This document shows positions 34,895 through 38,105 of a stretch of 38,105 nucleotides of DNA, piece by piece. The notes under the pieces are model-generated. The model searched no databases. It was given only the letters and a program-made list of their open reading frames with translations, and had not been told where the DNA came from. This stretch comes from Alicyclobacillus shizuokensis NBRC 103103 (GTDB lineage Bacteria > Bacillota > Bacilli > Alicyclobacillales > Alicyclobacillaceae). The stretch spans positions 1 to 38,105 of the forward strand of contig NZ_BCQV01000038.1 of the NCBI RefSeq assembly GCF_001552255.1, in the 5' to 3' direction. Numbering within the stretch: the stretch's first letter is position 1; every line of letters begins with the position of its first letter. Made by a program: the position numbers and the translations under genes.

Positions 34895-36265
34895 ATGGTG
34901 CAGTCCAACGTGGTCTTGAAACAACAACCCGTTGTACGAATGAATCCCTTGCAACGCACGACCCAGTTCTTCGCGGCAGTCATGGAGAGATATCTGCCGG
35001 ATCCGTTTGTGCTTGTGATGATGCTGACCCTGGTGATGCTCCTTTTAGGCATCACGGTTTCTCATCAGAGTTTGCCGGCGATGGTGCGGGATTGGTCGAA
35101 CGGTTTTTGGGGGTTTTTGGAGTTTTCCATGCAGGTCGCGTTGGTGGTGGTGACGGGATACGCCTTGGCGGTATCTCCGCCAGTCGCCAAACTTTTGAAC
35201 TGGTGTGCCTCCCGTGTCCACAGTCCTCGCGGCGCGATTGTGTGCGCGACCGTGGTCTCGTGCATCGCTTCCTACATCAATTGGGGATTCGGGTTGATTG
35301 CCGGGACTTTGATGGCGCAGCAACTCGCGAAGCGGATTCGTGGTATTCACTATCCGCTGTTGATTGCGAGCGCCTATTCAGGATGGATTGTGTACGGCCT
35401 CGGGGTGTCCGCGACCATTCCTATCACCCTGGCCACGGCTGGCAATCCGTTCGCGGCGTCGATTGGCGGATTGATCTCCTTGCGGCACACTGTGTTTCTT
35501 CCGGCTGTTGTGGTGGATGCAGTCGTCCTGATGGTCACCCTGCCCACACTCAATATCCTCATTCACCCGAAGCGTGACGCCGTGTTCGATATCAATCCGT
35601 CTTCATGGGAAACGACGGATAGACAGGACAGCGTGCCGGTGGCCAGGACGCCGGCCGAGAAGTTAGAGAGGATGCGGCTGCTGAATGTCATCATGGTGCT
35701 CATGGGAGCCGGCTTCCTGGGCTATCATTTTTCCTCCGGTGGGTCTTTGGACATTGACACATTGAACGCTATCTTCCTCTTTTGTGGGTTGTTGTTTCAT
35801 GGCACTCCGGCAGCCTATGTTCGCGCTGTGTCAGAAGGCGTTCGAAGCATTGGCGGCATTGTGCTCCAGTTTCCGTTTTACGCCGGCATTATGGGCATGA
35901 TGAAATCCTCAGGACTGGCGGTCGCCATTTCCAAGTGGATGGTTGATATCTCAACTGTGCACACCCTGCCTCTGTTTGGACTTTTGAGCTCTTTTCTCAT
36001 CAATTTCTTTGCTCCTTCTTCAGGGGGGCATTGGGCGATTCAGGGACCATTTATGATTGAAGCGGCCAAAAGCCTGGGGGCCGATGTGGCGAAGACCAGT
36101 ATGGCCGTGCAGATGGGCTGCTCATGGAACGACTTAGTGCAACCCTTTTGGCTGATTCCCATTTTAACGCTGGCTCGTTTGAGCGTCCGCCAGATTATGG
36201 GCTACACCATCGTACCCTTCTTCTGGGTAGGTATCGTCTACGTCGTGACCGTCTTGATTTGGTAG
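34895..36265 (+). CDS. AtoE-family short-chain fatty acid transporter-like permease
   Basis: A 456-residue membrane protein with about 11-12 hydrophobic segments. ERYLPDPFVLVMMLTLVMLLLGI at the N-terminus, then INWGFGLIAGTLMAQQLAKR, GLLSSFLINFFAPSSGGHWAIQGPFMIEAAKSLG, and GCSWNDLVQPFWLIPILTLARLSVRQIMGY are hallmarks of AtoE (each described as a segment). Family members are proposed to carry acetoacetate or short-chain fatty acids. In this cluster it may move an organic acid left after desulfonation, which is inference. Start ATG 34895 follows AAGGAGG (34884-34890). Confidence 0.85.
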   Translation: MVQSNVVLKQQPVVRMNPLQRTTQFFAAVMERYLPDPFVLVMMLTLVMLLLGITVSHQSLPAMVRDWSNGFWGFLEFSMQVALVVVTGYALAVSPPVAKLLNWCASRVHSPRGAIVCATVVSCIASYINWGFGLIAGTLMAQQLAKRIRGIHYPLLIASAYSGWIVYGLGVSATIPITLATAGNPFAASIGGLISLRHTVFLPAVVVDAVVLMVTLPTLNILIHPKRDAVFDINPSSWETTDRQDSVPVARTPAEKLERMRLLNVIMVLMGAGFLGYHFSSGGSLDIDTLNAIFLFCGLLFHGTPAAYVRAVSEGVRSIGGIVLQFPFYAGIMGMMKSSGLAVAISKWMVDISTVHTLPLFGLLSSFLINFFAPSSGGHWAIQGPFMIEAAKSLGADVAKTSMAVQMGCSWNDLVQPFWLIPILTLARLSVRQIMGYTIVPFFWVGIVYVVTVLIW

Positions 36266-36347
36266 CACCGGAGTTTGCGCGGAGGCCCAACTGACCGTAA
36301 CCGCTTCACTGGAAAGACCTGCGGTGAAATGTCAAGGGGGTGATGAA

Positions 36348-36371
36348 ATGAGTTATGTAAACTCGACTTGA
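36348..36371 (+). other. orphan ribosome site and start codon
   Basis: AAGGGGGTGAT (36334-36344) precedes ATG at 36348, which reads MSYVNST then stops. A strong ribosome site on a 7-codon frame just before the IS110 region suggests the beginning of a gene cut off by the insertion or by deletion. It could also be chance. Confidence 0.3.
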
Positions 36372-36394
36372 AATAAAGCATCACTCCCTCATCG

Positions 36395-36417
36395 AGGATG
36401 AATGGAAATTTCATCCT
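36395..36417. repeat. hairpin near the 3' end of the IS110 element
   Basis: AGGATGAA (36395-36402), 7-base loop, TTCATCCT (36410-36417): a perfect 8-bp inverted repeat located 37 bases beyond the transposase stop. It may mark the right end of the IS or act as a terminator for either side; it has no T run. Confidence 0.45.
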
Positions 36418-36453
36418 GATATCGGTGAAGTCTCAAGGTGCTGTTGTTCAGGT

Positions 36454-37692
36454 TCAGCCTGTCGCCCGCCTTTCGTCGTAGATTTGGCCGTTGCTCAGCA
36501 GCGCATAGACCAGTCGCACGAATTTTCGGGCCGTCAGAACCAATCCACGTTTGTGGTGGTGTGTTGTCGCTTCGCGGTACTTCTTCTGGTAAAACTCGGC
36601 GTACTCCCTGTTGTGTACCCGCAACGAGTTCGCCGCCTCTATCAGGTAGTACCGCAGGTAATAGTTGCCCGACTTTGTCAACTTGGTGTCATCGGCCCGA
36701 AATTGGCTCGATTGGTGCACGGACCATGTCAAGCCAGCGAATTTCGCGAGGGCAGCTTGGTCGTCGAAACGAGAGATGTCTCCAATCTCGGAGACAATGC
36801 CGGCCGCAATCACTGGCCCGATGCCGGGTACGGTATCGAGGGTCTGCGGAATCGCCGCCAAATGGCGAGCGATGACCTTATCCAGTTCCTTCAGTTGTCG
36901 CTGCAGGAACTGAATGTTGCTGAGCGTCATCGACAGCGTAACCTCAATCGCGTCGGCCATGGCTGGATTCAGCCGGTACGCACGCTGAGCGAGCCGCTTG
37001 AGCTCCCGGGCTAACTCTTGCGGGTCACGCAACCGGTTGTTGCCATGCTCCGCTATGAACTGGGCCAGTTCTTCTAACGGACGCTCTGCGACCTCATCCG
37101 GTGTCAGTTCGGAGAGAACAGCGGTGACTGCCTTGCCGAACGGGTCGCTAAAGGGGTTCTGTTGGTCGTCGCGCAGCGGCGAGAACTTGAGAAAAATCAT
37201 GCCCAGCGCCCGATTCTTCTCCCGGATGAGATTCTGCACCAGGTTGTAGCGAAAGCGTGTCAACCGCTGCAGAGCGGCATAGCGCGGGTCTTGTGGCAAC
37301 GTGGGGCGCAGCCCCCCAAAACGCAGCCGGTCGGCGATGACCCAGGCATCCATCGCATGGGTTTTCGGCAGCTTGGTATAAGCCTTCTTAAACCCATCCA
37401 CCAATGACGGATTGAGGACAAAAATCTCTGTGTCAAAGGGCTGGAGGGCGTCGTTTTGTGAGAGAAACTCGTGCAAGTGCCACCAGTACAGGTTGGTGGC
37501 CTCCATGCCGATTCGAAGCTGCGTGGAACCGGTGGATTCAAGCAACTCCAAAAGCTTGTCCAGGAGCTTCTCGGCGCCCACGAGGTCATTGGTGTAGGTC
37601 AATGCTCCGGACACGGGTTTGCCCTGCTCGTCGATGACGCGGACGACAAAGTTGCTCAGGCCGAGATCGATACCGACATACAGACATGCCAT
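36454..37692 (-). CDS. IS110-family transposase (DEDD recombinase)
   Basis: A 412-residue transposase. The N-terminal RuvC-like DEDD domain begins MACLYVGIDLGLSNF with D9, E64 (RIGMEATNLYWW), then KTHAMDAWVIADRLRFGG with D115 and D121. A helical middle section leads to the C-terminal Tnp domain with the helix-hairpin DTVPGIGPVIAAGIVSEIG and the catalytic-serine region (KLTKSGNYYLR). Start ATG at 37692 (minus strand) follows AGGAGGTGA; the frame is open further upstream through the non-coding end. The usual TDxxDA motif reads THAMDA here, so the third acidic residue is replaced or shifted. No frameshift: probably active. Confidence 0.93.
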   Translation of the reverse strand: MACLYVGIDLGLSNFVVRVIDEQGKPVSGALTYTNDLVGAEKLLDKLLELLESTGSTQLRIGMEATNLYWWHLHEFLSQNDALQPFDTEIFVLNPSLVDGFKKAYTKLPKTHAMDAWVIADRLRFGGLRPTLPQDPRYAALQRLTRFRYNLVQNLIREKNRALGMIFLKFSPLRDDQQNPFSDPFGKAVTAVLSELTPDEVAERPLEELAQFIAEHGNNRLRDPQELARELKRLAQRAYRLNPAMADAIEVTLSMTLSNIQFLQRQLKELDKVIARHLAAIPQTLDTVPGIGPVIAAGIVSEIGDISRFDDQAALAKFAGLTWSVHQSSQFRADDTKLTKSGNYYLRYYLIEAANSLRVHNREYAEFYQKKYREATTHHHKRGLVLTARKFVRLVYALLSNGQIYDERRATG

Positions 37693-37999
37693 TGTCAGAT
37701 TCACCTCCTGTTTGGCAGGGTGCGGGCGTCTGAGTCGCTGGGGTATCCCCGAGCCGCGGGTGTATCTCTCAGCCTCGCGTGATGAGAACTCGCCGGCCGC
37801 TCCCTGGGTACACCCGCATGCTGCTGTCATACGGGAAGGAGACGGACGGGGGACCGCCTGCGAGTCAAAGATCACACACCCGCATCGGGGAGACAGTCTT
37901 TCCGAGAAGTTCACCCAGGCGGTGACTACAGGAGGACACCAGAACTGCCCCGGACCCTACGCTTAAGGTCATTATCTCTGGGGATACCCCAGCGACTCA
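37693..37999 (-). ncRNA. candidate IS110 bridge RNA region
   Basis: IS110 elements encode, in the non-coding end upstream of the transposase, a structured bridge RNA whose loops pair with target and donor DNA. The 307-base stretch here fits in place and size, is free of plausible genes, and on the minus strand can form a long stem from its outer ends (20-bp repeat at 37980-37999 and 37731-37750) with inner pairings such as GCGGGTGT with ACACCCGC. The guide loops cannot be assigned by eye. Confidence 0.45.
37731..37999. repeat. 20-bp perfect inverted repeat in the IS110 upstream end
   Basis: The arm at 37731-37750 (TGAGTCGCTG then GGGTATCCCC) is the exact reverse complement of 37980-37999. 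The arms are 229 bases apart. Each arm contains its own short palindrome GGGGTATCCCC or GGGGATACCCC. They bracket most of the non-coding end of the IS. Confidence 0.9.
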
Positions 38000-38024
38000 A
38001 CCCTTTAGCCCTGTGTGTTTGTAG

Positions 38025-38051
38025 TTGACATAAAAGACCTTGGTCTAAATC
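38025..38051 (+). promoter_or_regulatory. promoter with palindromic operator before the last gene
   Basis: A perfect -35 box TTGACA (38025-38030) is followed by the dyad AGACC-TT-GGTCT (38035-38046) and an AT-rich stretch with a poor -10 candidate (TAAATC, 38046-38051, short spacing). A dyad between the boxes suggests repressor or MerR-like control. Confidence 0.4.
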
Positions 38052-38074
38052 AAATCATACGAGGAGGGTTTTGC

Positions 38075-38105
38075 ATGCCATCTGAAGCTATCCAGGGAAG
38101 CGTCT
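38075..38105 (+). CDS. start of an unidentified gene (cut by window end)
   Basis: ATG at 38075 with GAGGAGGG (38061-38068) before it and open to the window end, reading MPSEAIQGSV. Too short to identify. The promoter at 38025 suits it. Confidence 0.55.
   Translation, partial: MPSEAIQGSV

Follow-up and report, generated by a model that had tools for sequence, protein, structure and literature searches.

Results

An IS110-group element at the edge of an Alicyclobacillus contig

The DNA analyzed here (the window) is a stretch of 38,105 nucleotides from Alicyclobacillus shizuokensis NBRC 103103 (contig NZ_BCQV01000038.1, positions 1 to 38,105 of the forward strand). Close to its far edge it carries an insertion sequence (IS) of the IS110 group, in which a non-coding left end (LE) containing a perfect 20-bp inverted repeat precedes the transposase gene. 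The original prediction, made by a model from the sequence alone, had read 37693-37999 as the upstream end of an IS110 element and as a candidate bridge RNA with a long closing stem. The features that define the element are:

36317-38061, minus strand: IS110-group element (empty site in genome G002; copies of 5 multi-copy relatives diverge at the corresponding points)
38062-38063, minus strand: left CT core dinucleotide, AG on the plus strand (empty site, copies of relatives)
36315-36316, minus strand: right CT core dinucleotide, AG on the plus strand (empty site, copies of relatives)
36454-37692, minus strand: IS110 recombinase of 412 amino acids with PF01548 and PF02371; catalytic residues D9, E64, H112, D115 and S328 (Pfam, NCBIfam, alignment to IS621)
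37701-37709, minus strand: ribosome-binding site of the transposase, AGGAGGTGA (sequence)

The limits of this 1745-bp element were set by an empty site and by multi-copy relatives. In genome G002, from the same genus, the counterparts of window positions 36270-36315 and 38062-38104 adjoin on contig C23; because this site has one extra A within an A run, it leaves the core ambiguous when taken alone. Copies of relatives, collected as the original prediction had proposed for fixing the ends and core, diverge at matching points in five genomes (G078, 4 copies; G415, 2; G017, 5, among which copies L078 and L087 have duplicated surroundings; G062, 6; and G136, 3). Their left end is a pyrimidine run ending in CT and followed by CGTAT (TGTAT in G017), and their right end is CT. 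The element was therefore delimited as 36317-38061 with a CT core, which places both arms of the inverted repeat within LE; an element end inside the repeat, named beforehand as evidence against a bridge RNA, was looked for and not found. LE comprises 369 bp upstream of the transposase gene, and the right end (RE) extends about 137 bp past the stop codon. A CT core in the window and in all five multi-copy relatives, together with the lack of terminal inverted repeats, assigns the element to the IS110 group. A scan of the genome contigs with the single protein also returned two loci of 27% and 26% identity, which were not used, and Rfam had nothing matching 36000-38105 up to E 1.

The recombinase supports the same assignment. 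Its 412 residues pass the NCBIfam model transpos_IS110 ("IS110 family RNA-guided transposase") with 253 bits against a cut-off of 140, and they combine the DEDD RuvC-like domain and the PF02371 domain with catalytic serine that define the family. The solved relatives recovered by sequence are ISCro4 (9t56), IS621 (8wt6) and 9mty, with E values from 1.9e-8 to 3.7e-7 (E 1e-7 for the homologous recombinase of IS621). Window residues D9, E64, D115 and S328 align with IS621 D11, E60, D105 and S241, the first three of which we take to be catalytic positions of IS621.

The inverted repeat is predicted to close an RNA around two loops

The repeat search confirmed the anticipated pair of 20-nt arms, 100% complementary and 229 nt apart, and found only one other inverted repeat, a chance pair of 86%. 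By a hand calculation, about 2e-6 perfect 20-bp inverted repeats are expected in 2.1 kb of random DNA. When the minus strand of 37693-37999 was folded as RNA, as had been suggested, the predicted energy was -146 kcal/mol compared with -118.2 +/- 5.4 for shuffled sequences (0/100 as good, z -5.15), in agreement with the large stem foreseen there. The closing stem, which we call P1, comprises 23 pairs as RNA when a bulged A and a GAG/CTC step are counted, and P1 with its contents measures 269 nt. Its arms and the elements that they would enclose are:

37980-37999, minus strand: 5' arm of closing stem P1, TGAGTCGCTGGGGTATCCCC (repeat search, fold, arm comparison)
37731-37750, minus strand: 3' arm of closing stem P1, GGGGATACCCCAGCGACTCA; a CTC directly 5' of it adds 3 pairs (repeat search, fold, arm comparison)
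37954-37971, minus strand: short stem-loop GACCTTAAGCGTAGGGTC, perhaps equivalent to the 5' stem-loop of IS621 (fold; consensus helix 2)
37945-37953, minus strand: target-loop base stem, 5' side (fold, consensus)
37886-37896, minus strand: target-loop base stem, 3' side (fold, consensus)
37876-37885, minus strand: donor-loop base stem, 5' side, ATGCGGGTGT (fold, consensus)
37755-37763, minus strand: donor-loop base stem, 3' side, ACACCCGCG (fold, consensus)

A consensus of 10 aligned elements contains P1 (columns 3-24 with 253-274), the short stem-loop, the target-loop stem, the donor-loop stem and a distal hairpin. In this structure 94.3% of cells are paired, and 22 pairs have changed on both sides compared with 8.9 in shuffled alignments (0/500 as high); sliding the partners by a single column lowers pairing to 45-46%. 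The inner complementary segments GCGGGTGT and ACACCCGC, already picked out in the original prediction, form the base of the donor loop, where 5/8 pairs carry changes on both sides. Each window arm is also nearly palindromic by itself (CTGGGGTATCCCCAG). A local hairpin in each arm was considered as the conserved feature and rejected, as the arms of other subgroups are not palindromic.

P1 is found throughout one branch of relatives

All 19 elements with an intact LE have P1, with 16-24 pairs and energies of -28.5 to -47.8 kcal/mol, and P1 with its contents spans 248-269 nt in these elements. The relative in G063 was left out of this count because its outer LE is gone and with it the 5' arm. When arms were exchanged across subgroups, or the window's with those of the other elements, 0/226 combinations reached the weakest native stem (best swap -28.3). 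With arms aligned by identity alone, the mismatches amounted to 40 G-U, 6 A-C, 17 of other kinds and 31 gaps; DNA symmetry alone would yield G-U and A-C in about equal numbers, as each arises from single transitions.

P1 is present in another five named relatives (5/5), with 24-26 pairs and differing stem sequences. These lie on plasmids and a phage of Bacilli: Anoxybacillus amylolyticus (NZ_CP015439), Priestia megaterium (NZ_CP032530), Enterococcus faecium (NZ_CP093942), Streptococcus phage phiD12 (KC348603) and Alicyclobacillus dauci (NZ_CP104065). They share with the window the CT core, the LE layout, the closing stem and insertion beside an oppositely directed gene start, and they differ from it in stem sequence and in having only 39-48% transposase identity. 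Where annotation is given, it is limited to transposase, IS110 family transposase or putative transposase. Interrupted transposase frames occur in the copies from A. dauci, Anoxybacillus and phiD12 (L110, L111 and L114). At E 1e-60 or better, relatives occur in 400 records of a plasmid collection; Enterococcus accounts for 370 of these records, and 244 of the 400 are predicted to be conjugative.

A more distant branch from the same bacterial family, 34-36% identical (L080, L081, L084, L085, L089 and L092), resembles the window in having LE upstream, TTGACA near the RE end and a CTCCT-like target. It differs in that LE is about 230 bp, the element starts with AGTATAT, and the search used for the named relatives detected no closing stem beyond shuffles in 6/6 elements. 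In a 29-protein tree, the 21 rows that carry the P1-bearer label make up one side of a branch with support of 100/99. Among these labels, G063 counts as a bearer despite its lost 5' arm and L088, a member of the distant branch in which no end was recognized and which was thus outside the stem search, counts as stem-less; G018, G036, L110 and L114 are outside the tree. No enclosing stem was detected in IS621, where the strongest stem (-26.4) outscored 30 shuffles when 200 bp were searched (best shuffle -24.4) but was itself outscored with 230 bp (best -29.7) and with 260 bp (best -32.5); by its position, this stem looks like the target-loop stem rather than an enclosing one. Together, these comparisons support the view that P1 is conserved as a pairing and not as a sequence, and that it marks one branch of the IS110 group, in keeping with the earlier suggestion that the long closing stem may define a variant.

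Candidate guides between the arms follow the insertion sites and element ends

A bridge RNA has guides in a target loop and a donor loop that pair with the target and with the element ends, and candidates for all four were located between the P1 arms:

37930-37938, minus strand: left target guide TGTCCTCCT (target AACCCTCCT, identical over CCTCCT; guide comparison)
37898-37904, minus strand: right target guide CGGAAAG (target CTTTCC; guide comparison)
37857-37862, minus strand: left donor guide CGCAGG (RE ends CGCAGGT, then CT; guide comparison)
37774-37778, minus strand: right donor guide GCGAG (LE starts CTCGT; one G-U), the weakest of the four (guide comparison)

Their fit was compared with permuted partners in the 17 elements that have the needed ends; G284 (no ends recognized), parts of G018 and G035, and the five named relatives were outside this set. 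Own partners fitted better than permuted ones for the left target guide (5.01/7 vs 3.98), the right target guide (2.70/5 vs 1.80) and the left donor guide (5.59/6 vs 4.81), each with 0/5000 permutations as good, counts that serve as guides and not as probabilities because the rows are related. The proposed matching of loop sequences to the target and the joined ends thus bears out the candidate bridge RNA for three guides, and weakly for the right donor guide. Some individual elements match closely: the left target is matched over 9/9 bases in G302, G412 and the E. faecium element, and the right target and the guide complement share CTGCT in G008, CTGGGGA in G063 and CTAAACA in the E. faecium element. 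An alternative right donor guide, CATGCGGG (pairing by eye with CTCGTATG, two G-U), was rejected, since the position that relatives conserve reads GCGAG/ACGAG/GCAAG. By eye, the target guides of three elements of the 34-36% branch (L085, L081 and L092) match their own, differing, insertion sites over 8-9 bases (AGCTTCCT in L081).

The target is the complement of a Shine-Dalgarno sequence

The branch inserts at CCTC^CT, and the left target, CCTCCT or a near variant, is the complement of the Shine-Dalgarno sequence, a point absent from the original prediction. In the window the site belongs to the gene behind the element:

38062-38067, plus strand: AGGAGG, Shine-Dalgarno sequence of the gene behind the element, ATG at 38075 (sequence, insertion-site analysis)

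Because the core is part of AGGAGG, this motif stays beside the gene after insertion. At 33/52 insertions a start codon lies 8-19 bases downstream, counting from the A of AGG, and begins an open frame of at least 60 codons (30 if cut by the sequence end); 28 of the 33 are ATG. Of the 52, 7 belong to the distant branch and 8 are remnants or copies at contig edges. Among the other AGGAGG sites in the fetched sequence, 108/378 pass the same rule, 69 with ATG, although these controls themselves include real Shine-Dalgarno sites. The difference gives Fisher p values of 2e-6 (any start codon) and 1e-7 (ATG), which are rough because the near-duplicate insertion sites L078 and L087 each entered the count and overlaps between fetched loci made some control sites appear more than once. 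The window is one of the 19/52 insertions that fail the rule; its contig ends 31 nt into the gene. An intact homologue of that gene in G002 has acyl-CoA dehydrogenase domains, its best NCBIfam model being DszC, below the cut-off of that model. The 31 nt at 38075-38105 are the first of the gene, and a 94% match to its remainder lies on contig C92 of the window's own genome.

The left target guide thus resembles the anti-Shine-Dalgarno end of 16S rRNA. It is also, by eye, complementary over CCTCCT to the AGGAGG in the ribosome-binding site of the element's own transposase, and could act on that message. The distant branch has a similar target in the absence of P1, so the two traits are separable. 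A search of titles and abstract starts in the open-licence literature found no report of a Shine-Dalgarno or ribosome-binding-site target for IS110 or a bridge RNA, and such a report may be in print elsewhere. One copy in G136 (L101) lies at the Shine-Dalgarno sequence of a 102-codon gene resembling rpsJ (ribosomal protein S10), named by eye from its first residues. LE remnants with no recognizable transposase were found in G032 (L033, L034 and L035), G030 (L036) and G034 (L044); each begins at the Shine-Dalgarno side and their inner cut points differ. L035 retains both ends and, at about 200 bp, is a mini-element.

Joining of the ends is predicted to assemble a promoter

Two promoter halves lie at opposite ends of the element:

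38054-38059, minus strand: -10 half TATGAT of a promoter formed by RE-LE joining (end pattern search)
36330-36335, minus strand: -35 half TTGACA of that same promoter, spaced 17 bp from the -10 half in the circle (end pattern search)

Among 43 homologous loci, 32 have a recognized LE start and 31 of these a recognized RE. The RE-LE junction reads TTGACA-17-TATNNT in 31/31 copies with both ends recognized, a count to be read knowing that TTGAC, the distance to the CT core and the initial TAT were built into the search pattern. Excision of IS621 rebuilds a sigma-70-like promoter for its guide RNA, according to PMC11208160.

Comparison with known bridge RNAs

The system resembles IS621, as described in PMC11208160 and PMC11208158, in its LE-encoded RNA, its target loop followed by a donor loop, its left and right guides, its CT core and its RE-LE junction promoter. 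According to the latter source, the IS621 RNA is 177 nt long and consists of a 5' stem-loop, a target loop (34-98) and a donor loop (110-177), with no enclosing stem described; when the 5' stem-loop is deleted, binding is reduced and recombination slightly so, and a single complex is believed to take its target loop from one RNA molecule and its donor loop from another. The predicted window RNA differs in its length of 269 nt, its closure by P1 and its Shine-Dalgarno complement as target. The parts of IS621 stand in a row with free ends; here the order is the same, but P1 encloses them in 19/19 elements and 5/5 named relatives.

Like ISEc11, ISPa11 and others of the IS1111 group, the window has a DEDD recombinase with a (here predicted) RNA guide. 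In that group the guide RNA is in RE and sub-terminal inverted repeats lie near both ends (PMC11187229 and PMC11208160). The window guides are instead in LE, with both arms of the repeat within LE, so the element falls outside the IS1111 group. Hundreds of IS110 elements gave diverse structures (PMC11208160), and the IS110 group may contain additional embedded families (PMC11187229). No closing stem was found among titles and abstract starts in the open-licence literature; the text of PMC11208160, taken apart from figures that show six other bridge RNAs, contains neither "closing" nor "three-way".

Discussion

We consider it very probable that 37693-37999 specifies a bridge RNA, and that the element belongs to an IS110-group branch in which this RNA bears an extra closing stem, P1, of 20-23 bp in this copy. 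Comparison of sequences establishes the ends, the core, the conserved fold, the matching of the left target, right target and left donor guides, the Shine-Dalgarno targeting and the junction promoter pattern; the right donor guide is weak. From these features we infer a working cycle, beginning with an excised circle that would join RE to LE so that the TTGACA-17-TATGAT promoter transcribes LE. The transcript would fold with P1 around the short stem-loop, the target loop and the donor loop. Its target guides would bind the two sides of the CCTC-CT-TTCC site and its donor guides both element ends around the same CT, where the recombinase would join site and ends. P1 most likely holds both loops in one junction, or in a fixed relative position, protects the RNA ends and keeps guide RNA and transposase message apart, for which it may serve as a substrate of RNase III. 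The window copy would presumably be active in this cycle.

Several observations weigh against this account. Arm swaps within a subgroup pair as well as natives, the arms being alike, and the arm limits were set by hand from the alignment, including those of G008. The rows are related, so that both the permutation and the G-U counts overstate the evidence. The A. dauci stem (-34.9) lies just below the best of 20 shuffles (-34.6). The right donor guide, with G-U allowed, fits at 5.00/5 vs 4.91 permuted, with 185/5000 permutations as good. In the 10-element alignment the window row is unpaired at 14/21 P1 pairs and at 29/75 overall, compared with 0-1 unpaired P1 pairs in each of the other nine rows. 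We read the unpaired P1 positions of this most diverged row as a one-column misalignment because the window's own arms pair over 23 bases. Finally, the element is a single copy in its genome, and its third catalytic position is H112 where IS621 and the relatives compared, including the 76% relative in G063, have D.

The inverted repeat might instead function as DNA, either as paired transposase-binding sites, as the original prediction had also allowed, or as an LE cruciform aiding synapsis, with the RNA pairing incidental. The perfect repeat and nearly palindromic arms of the window would suit such a role, as would the inverted repeats near the ends of IS1111-group elements (see above for the sources). 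However, the stem mismatches favor G-U over A-C (40 vs 6), the arms of other subgroups differ in sequence and are not palindromic, and both arms lie within LE rather than one at each end, which makes a DNA function very unlikely. Somewhat less remote, yet still improbable in our view, is that P1 serves mainly as a control or processing device in the leader of the transposase message and stands outside the working guide RNA. Its 3' arm stops at 37731, about 20 nt before the ribosome-binding site, pairing of the target guide CCUCCU with the AGGAGG of the element itself is conceivable, and a longer precursor of a short guide RNA is reported for relatives in PMC11187229. On the other side, P1 encloses exactly the stem-loop and both loops, with a size range of 248-269 nt in 19 elements, and the window fold shows no pairing of P1 with the ribosome-binding site.

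The window copy could also be a dead relic, its features reflecting the branch and not a working system at this locus; we regard this as unlikely. It is suggested by the single copy, by H112 and by the truncated left ends of relatives in other genomes. It is opposed by a perfect P1, an open frame of 412 amino acids and the presence of both ends, the core, both promoter halves and the guide segments. H112 may inactivate the protein, or may resemble the D-E-H-D sites of other RuvC-fold nucleases such as Cas9 and Thermus RuvC, which have H at the corresponding position.

On the evidence of sequence, then, the closing-stem RNA appears to be a variant of the IS110 bridge RNA, widened by its Shine-Dalgarno target. 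More tentatively, and with the doubt still outweighing the case for it, the branch may represent a separate bridge RNA architecture of Bacilli, in which a long stem of free sequence locks both loops in a single junction and the target guide copies the anti-Shine-Dalgarno sequence. If so, it would change how one RNA serves the synaptic complex, the element could enter ahead of nearly any gene while sparing that gene's ribosome-binding site, and the same guide may control the element's own transposase message. Bridge RNAs are under development as programmable recombination guides, for which the P1-clamped branch would provide an alternative scaffold and a means of testing if the two loops have to be supplied by distinct RNA molecules. 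For the elements themselves, Shine-Dalgarno targeting explains the positions of many copies and provides a near-universal target whose use spares the ribosome-binding site of the gene.
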